Assembly: GCF_014897675.1 (NCBI RefSeq)
Contig: NZ_JABUXU010000001.1
Span: 310,001 to 374,000 of the forward strand
Length of the DNA: 64,000 bases
Direction: 5' to 3'
Source: Advenella sp. FME57
Lineage (GTDB): Bacteria > Pseudomonadota > Gammaproteobacteria > Burkholderiales > Burkholderiaceae_B
Within the stretch, counting starts at the first letter, position 1, and each line of letters opens with the position of its first letter. Below are positions 16,734 to 24,601 of the stretch, in pieces. A program made the translations under genes and the position numbers. The notes beneath the pieces are model-generated. The model saw only the letters and a program-made list of their open reading frames with translations, was not told where the DNA came from and ran no database searches.

Positions 16734-16762
16734 AAAAGGTGGCAATCATGCCACCTTTTTTA
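16734..16762 (+). terminator. Intrinsic terminator after lysS
   Basis: AAAAGGTGGC (16734-16743) pairs with GCCACCTTTT around a six-base loop and is followed by a T run. The hairpin overlaps the last codons and stop of the convergent amidohydrolase gene, whose coding sequence ends at 16746. Confidence 0.85.
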
Positions 16763-18008
16763 TTTTTTGCGCATCGTCGAATCGCTCGACCGCATCGATC
16801 AGCACGCTGACTCCCTGGGCGAGTTCTTGAGCCGACGTCCACTCCTGCGCGCAATGGCTTTTACCCTCTTTGCTGGGCACGAAAATCATTGCTGATGGAC
16901 TGATATGGCTTAAAAACGCGGCGTCATGGCCAGCACCGCTGGGCATGACTTTGTACGGCAAACCCAGGCCGTCGCTGGCATCACGTATATGCGCCATCAG
17001 TTGCGGTGCACAAACGACGGGCTGGGTATCGGTGACCGTCTCACAGGCTAGCAGCGTAACCTGATTCATTGCTGCCGCCTGCGCGGCAATCTGCTCAAGT
17101 TTCCTGTTCAAAGCCTCCATGCTTGGTCGATGGTCCGAGCGCATTTCGACTGAAATTTCGGCAAACCCTGGCACGACATTGCTGGCATTGGGTCTGACAT
17201 TGAACTGGCCACAAGTGGCAACAACGTAATGTTCCGGCTTCTCGCTGGCCATCTGAGCTGCAATATGGCGAATGTCACAGGCCGTTTGTGCTGCCGCAAG
17301 CAGTGCATCGCTACGCATATGCATGGGCGTCGTTCCCGCATGTGCGGACTGTCCTTTAAATTTCAGACGCACCCTGATAATGCCGACAATGGCGCTGACA
17401 ACGCCGATCGGCAACGCCTCGTTTTCCAGCACGCACCCTTGCTCAATATGAATTTCAAAAAAAGCCTTAATGTCTTTTCGTTTGGCCAGATCATATGGCC
17501 TGCCGCCCATACGGACAATCGCATCGGCGAGCAGTTCCCCGGTCTGCGGGTGGGCGCAACGCAGAATATCCTCTGACAAATGACCGCTGATGCCCCTGCT
17601 GCCAATGCATGACTGGCCCCACTCACTGGGCTCTTCCGCCAGAAAATCAATGACCTCAAGCGTATGGTTCAACTGAATATTGCGTTCCTGCAGCGAGGCC
17701 ACGCATTCCAGTCCGGCAACAACGCCGGCAACGCCATCAAAGCGTCCGCCACCTGGCACCGTATCGCTATGTGAACCGATAGCGATCACCCCATTATTTT
17801 TGTCTGTACCGGACAGTCTTCCCACGAGATTGCCGGCCGCATCCACATGCACCACCATACCCAATTGCTGCATACGCTCAGTGATCCACAGGCGCCCCTT
17901 CAGGAAAATCTCGCTAAAGGATCGCCTTGTATAAGGCTGCGCCGCATCTGTCATGGTGCCCAGTTCCATCAGAGCATCCCAATAACGCTGCTCATTAGCT
18001 TTCATCAT
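16746..18008 (-). CDS. M20 family Zn-dependent hydrolase (allantoate/N-carbamoyl-amino-acid amidohydrolase type)
   Basis: Hydrolyses the amide of an N-carbamoyl or ureido compound; members include allantoate deiminase and N-carbamoyl-L-amino acid hydrolase, and the substrate cannot be told apart here. About 420 residues. Metal ligands are in GSHSDTVPGGGRFDG, DFLAEEPSEW and EIHIEQG; the lid domain has GQSAHAGTTPM; the C-terminal ligand is in SGAGHDAAFL. The start is the first of two adjacent ATGs, with AGGA eight bases upstream; an upstream extension has no ribosome binding site. No purine or hydantoin genes adjoin it. Confidence 0.87.
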   Translation of the reverse strand: MMKANEQRYWDALMELGTMTDAAQPYTRRSFSEIFLKGRLWITERMQQLGMVVHVDAAGNLVGRLSGTDKNNGVIAIGSHSDTVPGGGRFDGVAGVVAGLECVASLQERNIQLNHTLEVIDFLAEEPSEWGQSCIGSRGISGHLSEDILRCAHPQTGELLADAIVRMGGRPYDLAKRKDIKAFFEIHIEQGCVLENEALPIGVVSAIVGIIRVRLKFKGQSAHAGTTPMHMRSDALLAAAQTACDIRHIAAQMASEKPEHYVVATCGQFNVRPNASNVVPGFAEISVEMRSDHRPSMEALNRKLEQIAAQAAAMNQVTLLACETVTDTQPVVCAPQLMAHIRDASDGLGLPYKVMPSGAGHDAAFLSHISPSAMIFVPSKEGKSHCAQEWTSAQELAQGVSVLIDAVERFDDAQKIKKVA

Positions 18009-18316
18009 AAAAATAATCCTGATGTTGATAAGAGGCAAATAAACCGAACGGCACCGGGCTTCCTAGTAACATTACTATCGCCGACTACCCTGTTGCTACA
18101 CGCCCTGATTTTATTCATTCTACAGTCGATCGTACCATCAATGCACAGACTCCAATTCGAAAGTTGTGTCTACTGCTTGCGCAGCATAAGCGTACGGATT
18201 TTTCATTTATTCCGCCGATTTCTCTGTACCCGACTGAAATTTAGCTTACAACTGAGCAATACACATCAAAGTTAATCCTGTTTACTATATCGGCAAAATA
18301 AATAGGGAGCACTTTA
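18009..18316. other. Divergent intergenic region
   Basis: About 310 bases between the amidohydrolase and the His-rich lipoprotein gene, which face away from each other, so both promoters must be here. I see no clear operator or RNA element. AGGGAG precedes the lipoprotein ATG. Confidence 0.5.
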
Positions 18317-18556
18317 ATGAAAAAACTGCTTGTAATTATCGGTTTTCTGGCCATTTTTCTGACCGGTTGCGTGGTGCATGATCGCCATTATGGGTATCGC
18401 GATGGTTATCGCAACGGCGGACCAAAGTATGAAAGAAAATACAACCATTACAGTCGTCATCGATACCACCGCCCTCGGTCCTACCACAGAAAATATCGCA
18501 GTCATCGGGACTATCGCGGCCATCGGTCTCATCACGGGCATCACCGCCGCCATTAA
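18317..18556 (+). CDS. Histidine/arginine/tyrosine-rich small lipoprotein
   Basis: 79 residues. The signal peptide MKKLLVIIGFLAIFLTGC ends in a clean lipobox (LTGC), so the product should be lipid-anchored. The mature part is dominated by His, Arg and Tyr (for example YRDGYRNGG and a C-terminal RSHHGHHRRH). Such composition could bind metal ions or polyanions, but no family is recognised. AGGGAG lies upstream of the ATG. An overlapping hydrophobic ORF in another frame (18378-18569) is a shadow of the biased composition. Confidence 0.7.
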   Translation: MKKLLVIIGFLAIFLTGCVVHDRHYGYRDGYRNGGPKYERKYNHYSRHRYHRPRSYHRKYRSHRDYRGHRSHHGHHRRH

Positions 18557-18636: not shown

Positions 18637-18825
18637 TCATTCCTTAAAGATGGTTTCAATAGTCTTGTTAAACACTCGTGCAATTGTAAATGCCAGCGGC
18701 AGACTGGGATCATATCGCTCGTTTTCGATCGCGTTCACAGTTTGCCTGGATACTTCGAGCAACGCAGCCAAATCGGCCTGAGACCAGCCGTTCTCAGCTC
18801 GAAGCTGCTTAATGATATTCTTCAT
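18637..18825 (-). CDS. Short XRE-family transcriptional regulator
   Basis: 62 residues, almost exactly one Cro/CI-type helix-turn-helix: ENGWSQADLAALLEVSRQTVNAIENERYDPSLPLAFTIARVFNKTIETIF. This is the small type often paired with a membrane protein. Its ATG overlaps the stop of the upstream membrane protein gene by 4 bases, so the pair is translationally coupled. Two identical inverted repeats ahead of the pair (19216-19231 and 19255-19270) are the likely operator, suggesting autoregulation. Confidence 0.9.
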   Translation of the reverse strand: MKNIIKQLRAENGWSQADLAALLEVSRQTVNAIENERYDPSLPLAFTIARVFNKTIETIFKE

Positions 18826-19193
18826 GAATATCGCCTGATGCTAACGACAATTCCAGTTATCCAAAGCACTGCCATTAATGGCCAGATAAAGAAATAGGAC
18901 AATTTCGGATATCCCACTGTTTCAAGAAATCCATAGCTGAATGTGGCCACCGCTGTTAAGCCGAACGCCCAGCTTAACGCTTCGAATTGGATTTTTCGCT
19001 GTAGTTCATCTAACCGTCTAAGTTGTCGAATTACCACCCAACATATACCAACCGCCGGAACCATGGGAATAAGCGCAACTATCGGGCGTATCGGCGAAGC
19101 GCCGTCAATAGTACCCAATAGGTGCCCTGAGGCAAAAATGGCGATCATATAGATAACTATGCTCGACCCCAATTCTAGCAAATAGCGTTTCAT
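18822..19193 (-). CDS. Four-helix membrane protein paired with XRE regulator
   Basis: 123 residues with four predicted transmembrane helices: IVIYMIAIFASGHLLG, IVALIPMVPAVGICWVVI, LSWAFGLTAVATFSYGFL and FFIWPLMAVLWITGIVV. The short loop RQLRRLDELQRKIQFEA between helices 2 and 3 is conserved in a group of small inner-membrane proteins encoded beside short XRE regulators. Function unknown; it could sense a membrane state and control the regulator, but nothing here shows that. Confidence 0.82.
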   Translation of the reverse strand: MKRYLLELGSSIVIYMIAIFASGHLLGTIDGASPIRPIVALIPMVPAVGICWVVIRQLRRLDELQRKIQFEALSWAFGLTAVATFSYGFLETVGYPKLSYFFIWPLMAVLWITGIVVSIRRYS

Positions 19194-19215
19194 AAATAAT
19201 AGTCCCAGCCGTCAT

Positions 19216-19270
19216 GTAAAGGAAGCTTTACTATAACATTCAATTAAATCTAATGTAAAGCATACTTTAC
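19216..19270 (-). promoter_or_regulatory. Promoter with two identical operator-like inverted repeats
   Basis: GTAAAG-N4-CTTTAC occurs twice, at 19216-19231 and 19255-19270, 39 bases apart. Between them, on the minus strand, TTTACA and TATAGT form a -35/-10 pair with an 18-base spacer. The distal repeat covers the -35 and the proximal one lies just beyond the -10, over the start region. This is a classic layout for repression by the small XRE protein encoded downstream. Confidence 0.75.
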
Positions 19271-19538
19271 GCCATTGAAGTTCTTCTGCATTCCATTCTG
19301 GCCGCGGTCATTTTCCTCAGCAGCTGTCACAGGCGTATGGGTTCCGGTAATTCAAAGTGATTTTACGACCCATCAATGTGCTTTCTGATCGAAAATCAGA
19401 ATGCTCCTGCCTCTGCCTTCAGAAGTCGACAGGGTTTTACAAAAAGCAAAGCGAGCGCCCCCCGAAAATTGGATTAGTGCCCACTTATGTAGTGGCAAAT
19501 CCAAGCCAAAGTACCCTAATTGCAGGAAGCAGAGACAT

Positions 19539-20303
19539 TCAATAAAAGCGTGTCGTATCAAACACGGTATCAGGAAAACTGCAGGACAGGCGCTCTTTGC
19601 CCGATCCGAGACTTTTGCGTTTCACCACCAGCCGGCCAACAGGCCCGGTACAGTTCAAATGGGTGCCGCCGCAGGCAATCTGGTATTGTTCGCAATGCCA
19701 ACTGCGCAAATCCGGTTCTTGCGGGTGTGCACTCATGGTAATGGCCGCATTGCGTAAAACCAGGTCATTGGCACAGGCTTCGATCTGACTGACCTGTTCC
19801 GGTGTAAAGCGCGCATTTATGCCAAAGTCAAACCGCGCCCCGTCTATCCGAATATGGCAGCCCAAGGTGGCCTGCACGGCGTCCGGCCGGATCATATCGA
19901 CAGCCACGTAAAGTATATGGGAGGCCGTATGGCTGAGCATCAATCGCGCTCTTCGATCCGTATCAATACGCACCGTGACGCTATCGCCAATATGCAGATC
20001 GCTCAAAAGTGACACCTCATCCGGATGCACTTTGTGCCAGATGACGCCACCCACCTGGACATCAGGAAAACCATCAATCCCGGGCGAATGCCCGTACATT
20101 TTCCTTGCGTCGATAAACCTCAGAACGCGACCATTGTCCAGCGTGATCGTGCCATGGTCCGCTTCCTGCCCCCCTCCTTCAGGAAAAGCCACCGTGACAT
20201 CAAGCTCAACCATGTCGGCTTCAATTTTGATAATGCTGGCCTGGCAGTGGCTGAGATAGTTATCCTCATAATAACGCTTGCGGGTTTGTCTGTGGAATTT
20301 CAT
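19539..20303 (-). CDS. Free-standing alanyl-tRNA editing protein (AlaX-like)
   Basis: Trans-editing hydrolase that removes serine or glycine from mischarged tRNA-Ala. 254 residues with the AlaRS-type N-terminal segment (VAFPEGGGQEADHGTI) and the editing site: HTASHIL supplying HxxxH, then CGGTHLN supplying the Cys and His zinc ligands. No catalytic synthetase core is present, so it is a stand-alone domain. It backs up the AlaS encoded at 43265-45880. No co-transcribed partner is visible. Confidence 0.9.
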   Translation of the reverse strand: MKFHRQTRKRYYEDNYLSHCQASIIKIEADMVELDVTVAFPEGGGQEADHGTITLDNGRVLRFIDARKMYGHSPGIDGFPDVQVGGVIWHKVHPDEVSLLSDLHIGDSVTVRIDTDRRARLMLSHTASHILYVAVDMIRPDAVQATLGCHIRIDGARFDFGINARFTPEQVSQIEACANDLVLRNAAITMSAHPQEPDLRSWHCEQYQIACGGTHLNCTGPVGRLVVKRKSLGSGKERLSCSFPDTVFDTTRFY

Positions 20304-20930: not shown

Positions 20931-22880
20931 ATGAAATCCGCTCAATTCTCTCCTTCCCGTCGTCGCAGCCTGATGGCCCTGGCCAGTGCACCCATGTTGC
21001 CGCTCACCACTGGCTTTCTGGGTAGCTTTGCCGGCTTTGCCACCGCCCAGACAGCCGACGCTGTGAAAAAAGCGTTTGCGTCTGCCGAGTTTATCGGCAT
21101 GGCCGCGCCCACGCTGGATAATCCTGCCGCGCTGGCTGACACCACAGTGGGCTCTTCCTTGAAAATACACTGGGCCGACAAGACCGACACCACGTTTGAA
21201 CTGGCTTACAAGCCGTTTTTTCTGACCGGCGATAAAGTGCCCGACGGCAAAGGCGGCCAGGTCATTGCTGGCGGATACTTCGATATCAACAACAAGCCTA
21301 TTATGGACACGTCCGTTGCCGGCAAAGAGCGCCAGATTTTCTCCGACAGCCCCGATGGCACGTCGCTGCTCAAGCTGGACAATGCCAAAGTCGAGGGCGT
21401 CAAAGGCAATACGGTATTTGCAGTGGTACAGTTCGAATACACCACCCGCAATCTGAATGGCGACGATATGTACGGCAAGCTGCCCTCTCCCATCGCCGTG
21501 CTCACCCTGGACCAGGATCCTGATACAGGGCACCTGTCGCTGGTAAAATATCACAATGTCGATACCTCTGGTGTCCATGGCCTGTGGATTACCTGTGGCG
21601 CGTCGCTCTCTCCATGGAACACGCATCTGTCCAGCGAAGAGTATGAACCGGATGCCTTCAAAGTGGCCCAGAACGACGAATTCAAAGGCTTCAGCAAGGC
21701 GCTGTTCGGCGACGAGAAAAAAGCCAATCCGTATCATTACGGCCATATGCCTGAAGTCACGGTCAACCCCGACGGCACTGCCACCATCAAGAAACATTAC
21801 AACCTGGGCCGTATTTCTCATGAATTGATTCAGGTGATGCCGGACAAACGTACCGCATTGATGGGCGACGATACCAACCACGGTGGCTTGTTCATGTTTG
21901 TTGCAGACAAAGAGGAAGACCTGTCTGCCGGTAACCTCTATGTTGCAAAATGGCACCAGACCAGCGGCGAAGGCCCAGGCTCGGCCGATCTGACCTGGAT
22001 TCATCTGGGTCATGCGAGCAGCGACGAAATTGAAGCGCTGGCTGACAAGCTGGCGCCCGAAGACATCATGGAAGTGAAAACCGAAGACCCTAATGATGAT
22101 TCCTTCAAGAAAATCGTCTTTGACAAGAAGGTCAACTGGGTCAAGCTCAAACCCGGCATGGAAAAAGCAGCCACTTTCCTGGAAACCCACCGTCACGCCG
22201 CAGTCGCCGGCGGCAGCATGGGCTTTTCAAAAATGGAAGGCACGACAGTTAACGCCAAAGACAAAATTGCCTACTCGGCCATGTCCTATGTGCGCGATTC
22301 CATGCTCGATGGCTCCAGCGATATCAAGGTTCAAGGCCCTTTTGCCGGTGCCGTCTATGCGTTGAATCTGAAAGCCGGGCAGAAAGACAGCAATGGCAAA
22401 GAGATCAACAGCGAATGGGTTCCGGTCGACATGAAACCGCCCGCAGAACTGGTTGGTGAAGACCTGCAAACACCGGACGCGCTGGGCAATCTGGCCAATG
22501 CCGATAAAATCGCCAATCCGGACAATATCAAGTTTTCAGAGAAATTGCGCACCCTGTTCATTGGCGAGGACAGCGGCACGCATGTTAACAATTTCCTGTG
22601 GGCCTACAACGTAGATACCAAGCAACTGACACGCCTGCTGTCCTGTCCTGCTGGTGCCGAATCAACAGGCCTGCAATCGGTGGACGAGCTCAATGGCTGG
22701 ACTTACATCATGAGCAACTTCCAGCACCCCGGTGACTGGGAAAAAGGCAAAGGCGGTAAACCTGGCCTGCACGACGTGGTCAAGGACAAGGTCGCCCCGC
22801 TGATTGATGAAAAATATCATGATCGTTTCAGCGCCGCAGTAGGCTATCTGACTGGCAAGGAAAAAGCCGTCAAGCTTTAA
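20931..22880 (+). CDS. phoX: PhoX family alkaline phosphatase, Tat-exported
   Basis: Periplasmic phosphatase of the PhoX (DUF839) family, which uses calcium and iron and cleaves phosphate monoesters. 649 residues. The N-terminus has a twin-arginine signal (SRRRSLMALASAP) and a hydrophobic segment ending near ATAQT. Typical blocks are DQDPDTGHLSLVKYHN, ISHELIQVMPDKRTALMGDD, FSKMEGTTVNAKDKIAYSAM and LFIGEDSGTHVNNFLWAYN. It is a single-gene unit closed by a strong terminator. No Pho box was identified by eye. Confidence 0.93.
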   Translation: MKSAQFSPSRRRSLMALASAPMLPLTTGFLGSFAGFATAQTADAVKKAFASAEFIGMAAPTLDNPAALADTTVGSSLKIHWADKTDTTFELAYKPFFLTGDKVPDGKGGQVIAGGYFDINNKPIMDTSVAGKERQIFSDSPDGTSLLKLDNAKVEGVKGNTVFAVVQFEYTTRNLNGDDMYGKLPSPIAVLTLDQDPDTGHLSLVKYHNVDTSGVHGLWITCGASLSPWNTHLSSEEYEPDAFKVAQNDEFKGFSKALFGDEKKANPYHYGHMPEVTVNPDGTATIKKHYNLGRISHELIQVMPDKRTALMGDDTNHGGLFMFVADKEEDLSAGNLYVAKWHQTSGEGPGSADLTWIHLGHASSDEIEALADKLAPEDIMEVKTEDPNDDSFKKIVFDKKVNWVKLKPGMEKAATFLETHRHAAVAGGSMGFSKMEGTTVNAKDKIAYSAMSYVRDSMLDGSSDIKVQGPFAGAVYALNLKAGQKDSNGKEINSEWVPVDMKPPAELVGEDLQTPDALGNLANADKIANPDNIKFSEKLRTLFIGEDSGTHVNNFLWAYNVDTKQLTRLLSCPAGAESTGLQSVDELNGWTYIMSNFQHPGDWEKGKGGKPGLHDVVKDKVAPLIDEKYHDRFSAAVGYLTGKEKAVKL

Positions 22881-23031: not shown

Positions 23032-23814
23032 TCACAAACCAAGCGTATTTTGCACACTGTTGATCAGTACCTGCAGCCGTTTTGGGATTTGCCTGTTGCG
23101 CTCGGCAAATGATCCATCAGTGATTGGGACACCGCAGTTTAGGACAAAAATATTGCCATCTATCGGCTTCGCAAAGGGAACCGCAAAGCCGAACGAATGC
23201 GGTACCCATTGCTGGTTATTCGAGCAATAACCATAGCGCTCGAATTCTCGATAAGTCGCGGCCAGACTGTGATGATGCGCCTTGTAGTGGTCTGGCTGCT
23301 CCACCCGAATGCGATTCAGGGCTGCATTGCGCTCTTCTGCGCAGGCGCGGCAAAGCCAGGCCTTGCCGGCAGCGGTTGACATCATGGGCAATGCGGCGCC
23401 AATATCGGGATGAGCTTGCAGGGTTTCGTTGGCGCGCGATGTTTCCACATAAACCATATTACAACGATCCCGAATAACCAGTGAGACAGCCCCGTTGATC
23501 TCCAGCGCCAGCCGCAACATCAGAGGACGAGCAATCTGCCTTAACTGCAAGCTCGCAAGAAGTGGATAGCTCAATGTCAGTAGCGCCGGTCCCAGCAAAT
23601 AGCGCCTGCCCTGCGGTGCGCGCCGCAAATATCCGAGCTGAACAAGCGTATGGGTCAGTCTGGCAATCGTGCTCGGAGACAGGCCGGTACGCACCGAAAT
23701 CTGCTTATTTCCCAGCGTCGGCTCTCCTGATCTGAAGCAGGCAAGCACGTCAATTGCCTGAGCCAGCGTCGAGGCAAATTGCGGATCAGTGACTTTGCTA
23801 TCGGGGTCAGTCAT
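23032..23814 (-). CDS. IclR family transcriptional regulator (second of pair)
   Basis: 260 residues with an N-terminal winged helix (NKQISVRTGLSPSTIARLTHTLVQLGYLRR) and a C-terminal GAF-like effector domain (SLVIRDRCNMVYVETSRANE, LPMMSTAAGKAWL, FGFAVPFAKP and FVLNCGVPITDGSF). Its start overlaps the end of the upstream IclR gene by 8 bases. The two proteins share the same layout and many positions, so they look like an old tandem duplication. They are divergent from the acyl-CoA dehydrogenase operon and are likely to regulate it. Confidence 0.92.
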   Translation of the reverse strand: MTDPDSKVTDPQFASTLAQAIDVLACFRSGEPTLGNKQISVRTGLSPSTIARLTHTLVQLGYLRRAPQGRRYLLGPALLTLSYPLLASLQLRQIARPLMLRLALEINGAVSLVIRDRCNMVYVETSRANETLQAHPDIGAALPMMSTAAGKAWLCRACAEERNAALNRIRVEQPDHYKAHHHSLAATYREFERYGYCSNNQQWVPHSFGFAVPFAKPIDGNIFVLNCGVPITDGSFAERNRQIPKRLQVLINSVQNTLGL

Positions 23815-24601
23815 TATGTGCCTCCTGAAGCCGGCATTTATTTATTTCATCTACCATAGCAAGCAACGGTCGGGCTGCGACCGTCTCAATGGTTCTATCT
23901 TTCAGCCTTGATACTGGCACCCCGCAATTGAAGACCAGGTAGTCGCCGCCTACCGGATCGCGCAACGCCACCGCAACCGCGTGGACATCAGCCTGCCAGT
24001 CGCCATAAGAGAGGCAATAACCTTTTGTGTTCCAGTCATGTCGGGCCCGCTCCCAGGCAGCACCATGCATCTGCAACTGCGACGCATCTTCGCTACGAAT
24101 CTGATCCAGCACGCGTTCACGTATTTCCGAGGACGCATTCGCCAGCCAGGCGCGCCCCATTGCTGAGGCCAGCAATGGCAGGCGAGCGCCGATATCCGGC
24201 CTATAGCCGATCACCTCGTGACCTCGACTGGTTTCGATGTACACCATATGCAGCTTGTCATTCAGACCAAGCGACACAGATCCTTCGCAATGATCAGCCA
24301 GCGCCCGCATGTAGGGTCTTGCCATTTGACGCAAGCGAATACCGCTAAGCATGGGATGTGCCAGCGACAGAATACCGGCCCCCAGACGGTATCGTCGCAA
24401 CTGCACGTCGTACAGCAATAGCCCCTTGAGCGCAAGGGTATAGGTCAGCCGCGAGATGGTCGCTTTGGACAGGCCCGTCCGTTCAGCCAGCTCTTTGTTG
24501 CTGAGCGCGGGCTCTGCCATCCGGAAACACTGCAAGACCGACATGCCATGCGCTACGGTTGTCGCAAAACGGGGATCGCTGTGTCTATCTGTGTCTTTCA
24601 T
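23807..24601 (-). CDS. IclR family transcriptional regulator (first of pair)
   Basis: 264 residues; winged helix SNKELAERTGLSKATISRLTYTLALKGLL and effector domain with SLGLNDKLHMVYIETSRGHE, LPLLASAMGRAWLA and YLVFNCGVPVSRLK. It is transcribed away from the catabolic operon that starts at 24763, with a 160-base AT-rich gap between them holding an imperfect palindrome at 24639-24660. The ligand is unknown; IclR proteins next to such clusters usually bind the substrate or an intermediate. Confidence 0.92.
   Translation of the reverse strand: MKDTDRHSDPRFATTVAHGMSVLQCFRMAEPALSNKELAERTGLSKATISRLTYTLALKGLLLYDVQLRRYRLGAGILSLAHPMLSGIRLRQMARPYMRALADHCEGSVSLGLNDKLHMVYIETSRGHEVIGYRPDIGARLPLLASAMGRAWLANASSEIRERVLDQIRSEDASQLQMHGAAWERARHDWNTKGYCLSYGDWQADVHAVAVALRDPVGGDYLVFNCGVPVSRLKDRTIETVAARPLLAMVDEINKCRLQEAHND

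Follow-up and report, generated by a model that had tools for sequence, protein, structure and literature searches.

A CylR2-like repressor and a small membrane protein behind two operator-like dyads: a probable CylR1/CylR2-type switch in Advenella and other Proteobacteria

Introduction

The closest described counterpart of the gene pair analysed here is the cytolysin switch of Enterococcus faecalis, in which CylR2 is a repressor that binds the promoter and CylR1 is a suspected membrane protein. CylR1 is required for induction, and how it signals to CylR2 is reported to be not understood (PMC3709268). A further paper states that this quorum system had earlier been described for cytolysin alone, and reports similar genes beside bibacillin (PMC11343131). 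The targets of CylR1/CylR2 are divergent biosynthetic (lantibiotic) genes. Among solved structures, the one closest to the XRE protein of the present locus is DR_2454 from Deinococcus radiodurans (PDB 9k3w, labelled 'PbsX family'), for which no paper was found in the open-access literature. Here the locus, its operators and its relatives are compared with these systems.

Results

The window, a stretch of 64,000 nucleotides from Advenella sp. FME57, carries a small membrane protein gene followed by an XRE gene, with an ATGA common to the stop of the former and the start of the latter (Table 1). The open reading frames thereby confirmed an initial annotation of this DNA, which had described a 62-residue XRE protein overlapping a membrane protein gene by 4 bases. 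By sequence and fold the XRE protein is a CylR2-like regulator, a short single-domain helix-turn-helix protein with terminal beta strands. A phmmer search against PDB sequences matched DR_2454 (9k3w, E 8e-19, 62% identity) and the 66-residue CylR2 (1utx, E 3e-13, 52% identity), and Foldseek comparison of the predicted structure gave TM scores of 0.96 to 9k3w and 0.92 to 1utx (E 8.6e-6 for the latter). The structure model (pLDDT 96.9) consists of five helices and terminal beta strands, and neither it nor a Pfam search revealed any part beyond the DNA-binding fold. Several helix-turn-helix models in PADLOC matched weakly (best HTH_VI, E 1e-9), as is expected for any XRE protein. In its own genome the protein has one match at E<=1e-3 and no second.

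The membrane protein was modelled by AlphaFold2 with a mean pLDDT of 93.3 and helices at residues 2-28, 44-60, 63-91 and 100-122. The four helices named in the initial annotation are supported by this model, whereas hydropathy gave only three. No family was assigned by Pfam, NCBIfam, PHROG or PADLOC; against Pfam there was no match at E<=1, and hence none to the DUF2178 or DUF6442 models (gathering score). The best fold matches were at E 2.2 in Foldseek and Z 6.9 in VIA, values that are no proof of a new fold. Matches of related membrane proteins to DUF6350, NMN_transporter and other Pfam families were below cut-off and were rejected. The nearest named relative is Advenella incenata, whose membrane protein is 87% identical.

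The arrangement resembles CylR1/CylR2 in pairing an XRE protein alike in size and fold with a small membrane protein encoded alongside, and CylR1 too has an Asp-Glu (DE) motif, KKDER, after its first helix. CylR1 differs in its length of 94 residues and its three predicted helices, and the one CylR1 sequence compared could not be convincingly aligned to the four-helix family (hhalign probability 0.04%), with which it shares only the DE motif. A dyad a short distance upstream of cylR1, TGTCAAG-N5-CTTGACA, was noticed by eye and resembles those in the window, but it has a 5-base centre; under a score built for a 4-base centre it reaches 8 of 16, no higher than background.

Two copies of GTAAAG-N4-CTTTAC lie upstream of the membrane gene, with perfect arms and 39 bp between their starts, as first reported. 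They had also been called identical, which is incorrect because the central four bases differ between the two copies. No other perfect copy occurs in the window or in the whole genome. Allowing one mismatch added three further single sites in the genome, and the two of these that were read (L129 and L004) both fall within a mechanical reading frame. With two mismatches the window holds 3 matches, a number reached by 12 of 100 shuffles, so that a loose count is no evidence by itself; the evidence comes from comparing relatives. The repeats had been said to flank a good -35/-10 promoter. The promoter is present, but mere flanking understates the layout, in which the minus strand reads from a distal operator ending in the -35, through 18 bp, to a -10 that enters the proximal operator. 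With the -35 inside one site and the -10 touching the other, a bound repressor should block RNA polymerase.

Table 1. Features of the predicted switch and of a second gene with its own operator pair
Feature	Position	Strand	Description or evidence
XRE (Cro/CI-type) DNA-binding protein, 62 aa, CylR2-like, putative autorepressor	18637..18825	-	HTH_3 E 1.5e-16
Membrane protein, 123 aa, four-helix, D62-E63 between helices 2 and 3, putative sensor/anti-repressor	18822..19193	-	AlphaFold2, alignments
Proximal operator GTAAAG-N4-CTTTAC	19216..19231	-	Perfect arms; touches -10 and expected transcription start
-10 element TATAGT	19230..19235	-	5/6 match to TATAAT; 18-bp spacer to -35; overlaps proximal operator by 2 bases
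-35 element TTTACA	19254..19259	-	Within distal operator
Distal operator GTAAAG-N4-CTTTAC	19255..19270	-	Perfect arms; downstream arm holds -35
Two-helix protein, 84 aa, behind own operator pair	L108:1576-1827	+	Alphaproteobacterium

The membrane protein has relatives in 12 of 200 genomes from its family, own genome included; by eye, each of these 12 stretches carries a pair of similar dyads upstream, and the membrane gene is followed by an XRE gene. When one genome per species was scanned with a profile, across 84,980 species, 295 relatives were returned. The best 80 of these, assigned by record title to the alpha-, beta- and gammaproteobacteria, were kept and with the window make up 81 loci; these include many close relatives (many of them Pseudomonas) and are not 81 independent events. 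An XRE gene adjoins the membrane gene in 81 of the 81 (tblastn), in most with the ATGA overlap. An operator pair, defined as two sites each scoring at least 10 of 12 with starts 30-50 bp apart, precedes 77 of them with starts 35-45 bp apart, against counts of 0 among 1,620 shuffles and 0 among 474 control stretches taken elsewhere in these loci, which rules out chance repeats. The initial annotation had staked its proposal on finding the repeats upstream of homologous pairs, and in these 77 loci they are present. Of the four loci without a pair, L033, L056 and L082 have a single good site and L036 has two weak ones. The operator consensus over related loci is ATGTAAAGCATGCTTTACAT.

Among the 77 loci, one arm base of the distal site varies between T (40 loci) and G (37 loci, with CTTGAC, of the TTGACA type, replacing CTTTAC), whereas its counterpart in the proximal site is T in all 77 and G in none. 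That the variation is confined to the distal site is best explained by the distal arm doubling as the -35. A scan for the -10 reached 4 of 6 matches in 32% of the 77 loci against 16% of shuffles; the promoter is thus well supported in the window and only modestly over the 77-locus set. Around the 81 loci no conserved gene cluster was found beyond synteny among related species such as Pseudomonas, in a neighbour survey that used crude ORF calling and in which the 40 largest clusters, those present in 5 or more loci, were viewed; a LysR-type family recurs in 15 of the 81 loci, at scattered places. The operon differs in this respect from CylR1/CylR2 with their divergent biosynthetic targets, and the nearest scanned genes in the window, encoding an N-carbamyl-glutamate amidohydrolase and an AlaX-like protein, both lie on the operon's strand.

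Blind scanning of 398 genomes of the phylum for the pair pattern turned up 12 places, spread over 11 genomes and including that of the window, and 0 for the reversed control; 11 of the 12 places adjoin an XRE gene. The twelfth, L108, precedes the two-helix protein gene of Table 1 in a genome that has the module elsewhere (L098), and a relative of this protein, with 41% identity over 80 residues, is encoded between the operators and the module in L097. The two-helix protein was rejected as a general output, having weak relatives in only 2 of 249 genomes. In 49 genomes chosen for holding the membrane or XRE gene, the 18-base pattern TGTAAAG-N4-CTTKACA was found at 31 places in 19 of these module-bearing genomes (1 for the reversed control), and the remaining 30 have none, the Advenella genome being among them because its outer bases differ. 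All 31 exact sites are at an XRE module, as determined by a comparison of positions in which one misfit place proved on reading to be a further XRE gene.

When up to one mismatch to the 18-base operator was allowed, the own genome showed two sites only, both before the membrane gene. Elsewhere in that genome, sites with 2 mismatches number five, all single, and those with 3 about 80, bringing the total to 87 places; the reversed control pattern gave 217, more than the real pattern, and the weak sites are therefore at background level. Six of the weaker sites were read, of which L126 and L127 look intergenic and four are within mechanical reading frames. A wider regulon in the own genome was rejected on these grounds. 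A prophage origin was likewise rejected: of 13 viral contigs with the pair pattern, only two yielded a relative of the membrane protein (L109 and L111, in the latter at the contig's end) and none yielded an XRE relative, and by eye the remaining pair patterns look like tandem repeats or unrelated dyads.

Two adjacent residues, D62 and E63, are the sole invariant positions in an alignment of 56 membrane-protein sequences, and they are among the 12 invariant residues of 66 closer relatives. In the AlphaFold2 model they occupy the turn that joins helix 2 to helix 3, and the positive residues around this turn suggest that it is cytoplasmic. The module was also approached from its repressor. At E<=1e-14, relatives of the XRE protein were found at 52 places, distributed over 38 of 249 genomes (a set partly shared with the earlier draw), and 30 of the 52 places were read, window included. 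A small membrane gene adjoins the XRE gene in all 30, directly upstream in 29 and downstream in one (L159). The DE motif lies between hydrophobic stretches in 27 of the 29 upstream partners, compared with any DE at all in 11% of shuffled partner sequences. One of the two exceptions, L141, has the motif but lost the preceding helix to a 140-residue cut; the other, L152, is without DE. Near these 30 XRE relatives, strict operators number two in 9 cases, one in 5 and none in 16, and 14 of the last 16 have a relaxed candidate operator, a raw count that may include chance matches. Over 48 pairs, membrane and XRE distances correlate with r 0.45, a value as high as which occurred in 0 of 1,000 permutations; as the comparison covered these two genes only, this may reflect common descent alone.

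Similar pairs outside the Proteobacteria were viewed in a small sample of nine plasmid loci, eight of them non-proteobacterial, hand-picked from 60 listed of 467 records. In Haladaptatus a gene annotated as DUF2178 overlaps an XRE gene by 4 bases behind two dyads with perfect arms, which score 14 and 13 of 16 and start 17 bp apart. Lactiplantibacillus has a DUF6442 gene and an XRE gene behind two related dyads, scoring 13 and 13. Stretches from two Streptomyces, Priestia and Haloferax contain a membrane gene with DE and a dyad scoring 14-15, and those of Halobacterium and the alphaproteobacterium Qipengyuania score only 12; the best dyad in the rest of each plasmid locus scores 7-12, highest in the AT-rich loci. 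The plasmid L178 of Staphylococcus carnosus carries a CylR2-like XRE gene, one perfect ATGTAAAATATATTTTACAT dyad scoring 14 and then a peptide deformylase gene, and no membrane partner of the XRE gene was found in the stretch read.

The pairs with a DUF2178-annotated partner (Haladaptatus, Streptomyces) or a DUF6442 partner (Lactiplantibacillus) are like that of the window in their overlapping genes, CylR2-like XRE protein and DE motif, and in upstream dyads close to ATGTAAAG-N4-CTTTACAT. They differ in belonging to other Pfam families, gene order is reversed in one Priestia and one Streptomyces record, and in the DUF6442 partner the DE precedes the first helix, at residue 5. Around the DE, one Streptomyces partner shows a clear relationship to the membrane family of the window (E 2.5e-10 over 54 columns). 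The hhalign probabilities of the DUF2178 partner (0.24%) and the Priestia partner (6.6%) are, like that of CylR1, unconvincing, and the DE common to these partners could therefore be convergent. No mention of DUF2178 or DUF6442 was found in the open-access papers that were scanned for these names. On the 2.9-kb plasmid pMF1298-13 of Lactiplantibacillus plantarum (L170), the gene table, which is possibly incomplete, lists only rep, the DUF6442 membrane protein and the CylR2-like XRE protein, a gene content suggesting that the pair itself may benefit the plasmid.

Discussion

The pair is probably a self-contained transmembrane switch of the CylR1/CylR2 type, in which an autorepressor would be released under the control of its membrane partner. 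Its two genes overlap, and the predicted promoter is built into two operator-like dyads. XRE dimers very likely occupy both dyads, masking the -35 and -10 and repressing the operon that encodes them; in the own genome no other promoter with a comparable operator pair was found. The membrane protein, whose termini are both predicted from charge to lie inside, may present its Asp-Glu turn to the cytoplasm and may bind or release the XRE protein on sensing a change in or near the membrane. Lifting of repression would then yield more of both proteins, making the membrane protein both the sensor and the main product, with an amphipathic peptide, a lipid or other envelope stress as candidate signals. 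Judged from the sequences, autoregulation through two sites is very likely. The tight autoregulated switch foreseen in the initial annotation is strongly supported, inasmuch as operator pairs precede homologous pairs in alpha-, beta- and gammaproteobacteria and every exact site in the 49 genomes belongs to a module. A sensor role for the membrane protein is plausible by analogy with CylR1/CylR2 and from the recurring DE motif.

The conservation of that motif also bears on an alternative that we regard as unlikely, in which the membrane protein is an output only, for immunity or envelope protection, and the XRE protein is its private repressor, holding the level constant with no signalling between the two. 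The restriction of the own genome's near-exact 18-base sites to the membrane gene would suit such an arrangement, as would the alphaproteobacterium in which a second operator pair precedes the two-helix gene and the 41% relative of that gene inside another genome's operon. Against it, the best conserved residues lie in the predicted cytoplasmic turn, the membrane gene is never without the XRE gene in the 81 loci, and the studied counterpart CylR1 is required for induction, as PMC3709268 reports. It is still less probable that the pair is an addiction module, in which an XRE antitoxin holds a membrane toxin in check and represses the promoter of both. Two small overlapping genes under autoregulation are what such a module would look like, the spread is patchy (the 12 of 200 family genomes, own included, with neighbours unconserved beyond related species), and on the 2.9-kb plasmid a related pair is the only listed content apart from rep, if its gene table is complete. 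The XRE protein also matches the Y4mF antitoxin model TIGR03070, but scores 39.9 bits where the cut-off is 71.65, and with a partner left unmatched by PADLOC, Pfam, NCBIfam and PHROGs the locus does not classify as a type II toxin-antitoxin system of the HipB/Y4mF type; the XRE protein moreover has no part besides its DNA-binding fold.

Very improbable is a wider regulator, for which the operon would be one target among many genes elsewhere. The weak 2- and 3-mismatch sites, two of which look intergenic, would be its other targets; one extra operator pair occurs in another genome (G575), and two genomes have a divergent amidohydrolase gene next to the operators. The larger yield of the reversed pattern, the position of four of the six weak sites read within reading frames and the presence of all 31 exact sites at modules speak against it.

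With the CylR1/CylR2-type switch as the preferred reading, the same trio of repressor, membrane partner and operators recurs in many proteobacteria and, on few records, in other bacteria and in archaea. The initial annotation had proposed a previously undescribed regulatory pair. CylR1/CylR2 already exemplify the kind, and the XRE protein is related to CylR2; what stands of the proposal is that the open-access literature, outside which most subscription papers lie, yielded only the CylR1/CylR2 and bibacillin papers on such pairs and no description of this branch or its operator. The module is best regarded as a wide, little described branch and not as a wholly new kind. More tentatively, and with chances that we put just short of even, CylR1/CylR2 may be one branch of an ancient bacterial and archaeal signalling class composed of a CylR2-like repressor, a highly diverse membrane partner with the cytoplasmic DE motif and a near-constant operator, ATGTAAAG-N4-CTTTACAT, that carries the -35. 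If so, repressor and operator would be constant and the sensor free to change, an arrangement amounting to a plug-in membrane switch that operates without phosphorylation. Many relatives outside toxin clusters, a near-fixed operator and a conserved cytoplasmic motif would make the question of how CylR1 signals to CylR2 directly testable. The module gives a rule by which gene pairs annotated as a hypothetical membrane protein plus HTH can be found and classified, and its modular layout could serve synthetic biology as a ready-made membrane sensor.

Several neighbouring genes merit mention in their own right. In two alphaproteobacteria an amidohydrolase-family gene (Pfam Amidohydro_1; L097:1571-3010 and L098:1577-3004, plus strand) lies divergently beside the operator pair, placed like the biosynthetic genes beside cylR1/cylR2, and is a candidate second target. 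In the window, the amidohydrolase gene at 16746-18038 (minus strand) encodes an M20-type enzyme above the NF058540 cut-off (ErtE, N-carbamyl-L-glutamate amidohydrolase), and the AlaX-like alanyl-tRNA editing protein encoded at 19539-20303 (minus strand) scores 116.8 bits, well below the AlaXM cut-off of 300. Convergent to the XRE gene, at 18317-18556 (plus strand), is a gene for a 79-residue lipoprotein-like protein, rich in Arg, His and Tyr, with a signal ending in LTGC and no family above cut-off. Just past the distal operator, on the opposite strand at about 19271-19360 (plus), a frame without a usual start codon encodes a lipobox-like LSSC and a short tail; by eye we take it to be entericidin-like, and it is perhaps a remnant. 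Further along, at 20931-22880 (plus) and 23032-24601 (minus), a PhoX-type alkaline phosphatase gene has two IclR-type regulator genes in tandem nearby (Pfam above cut-off).
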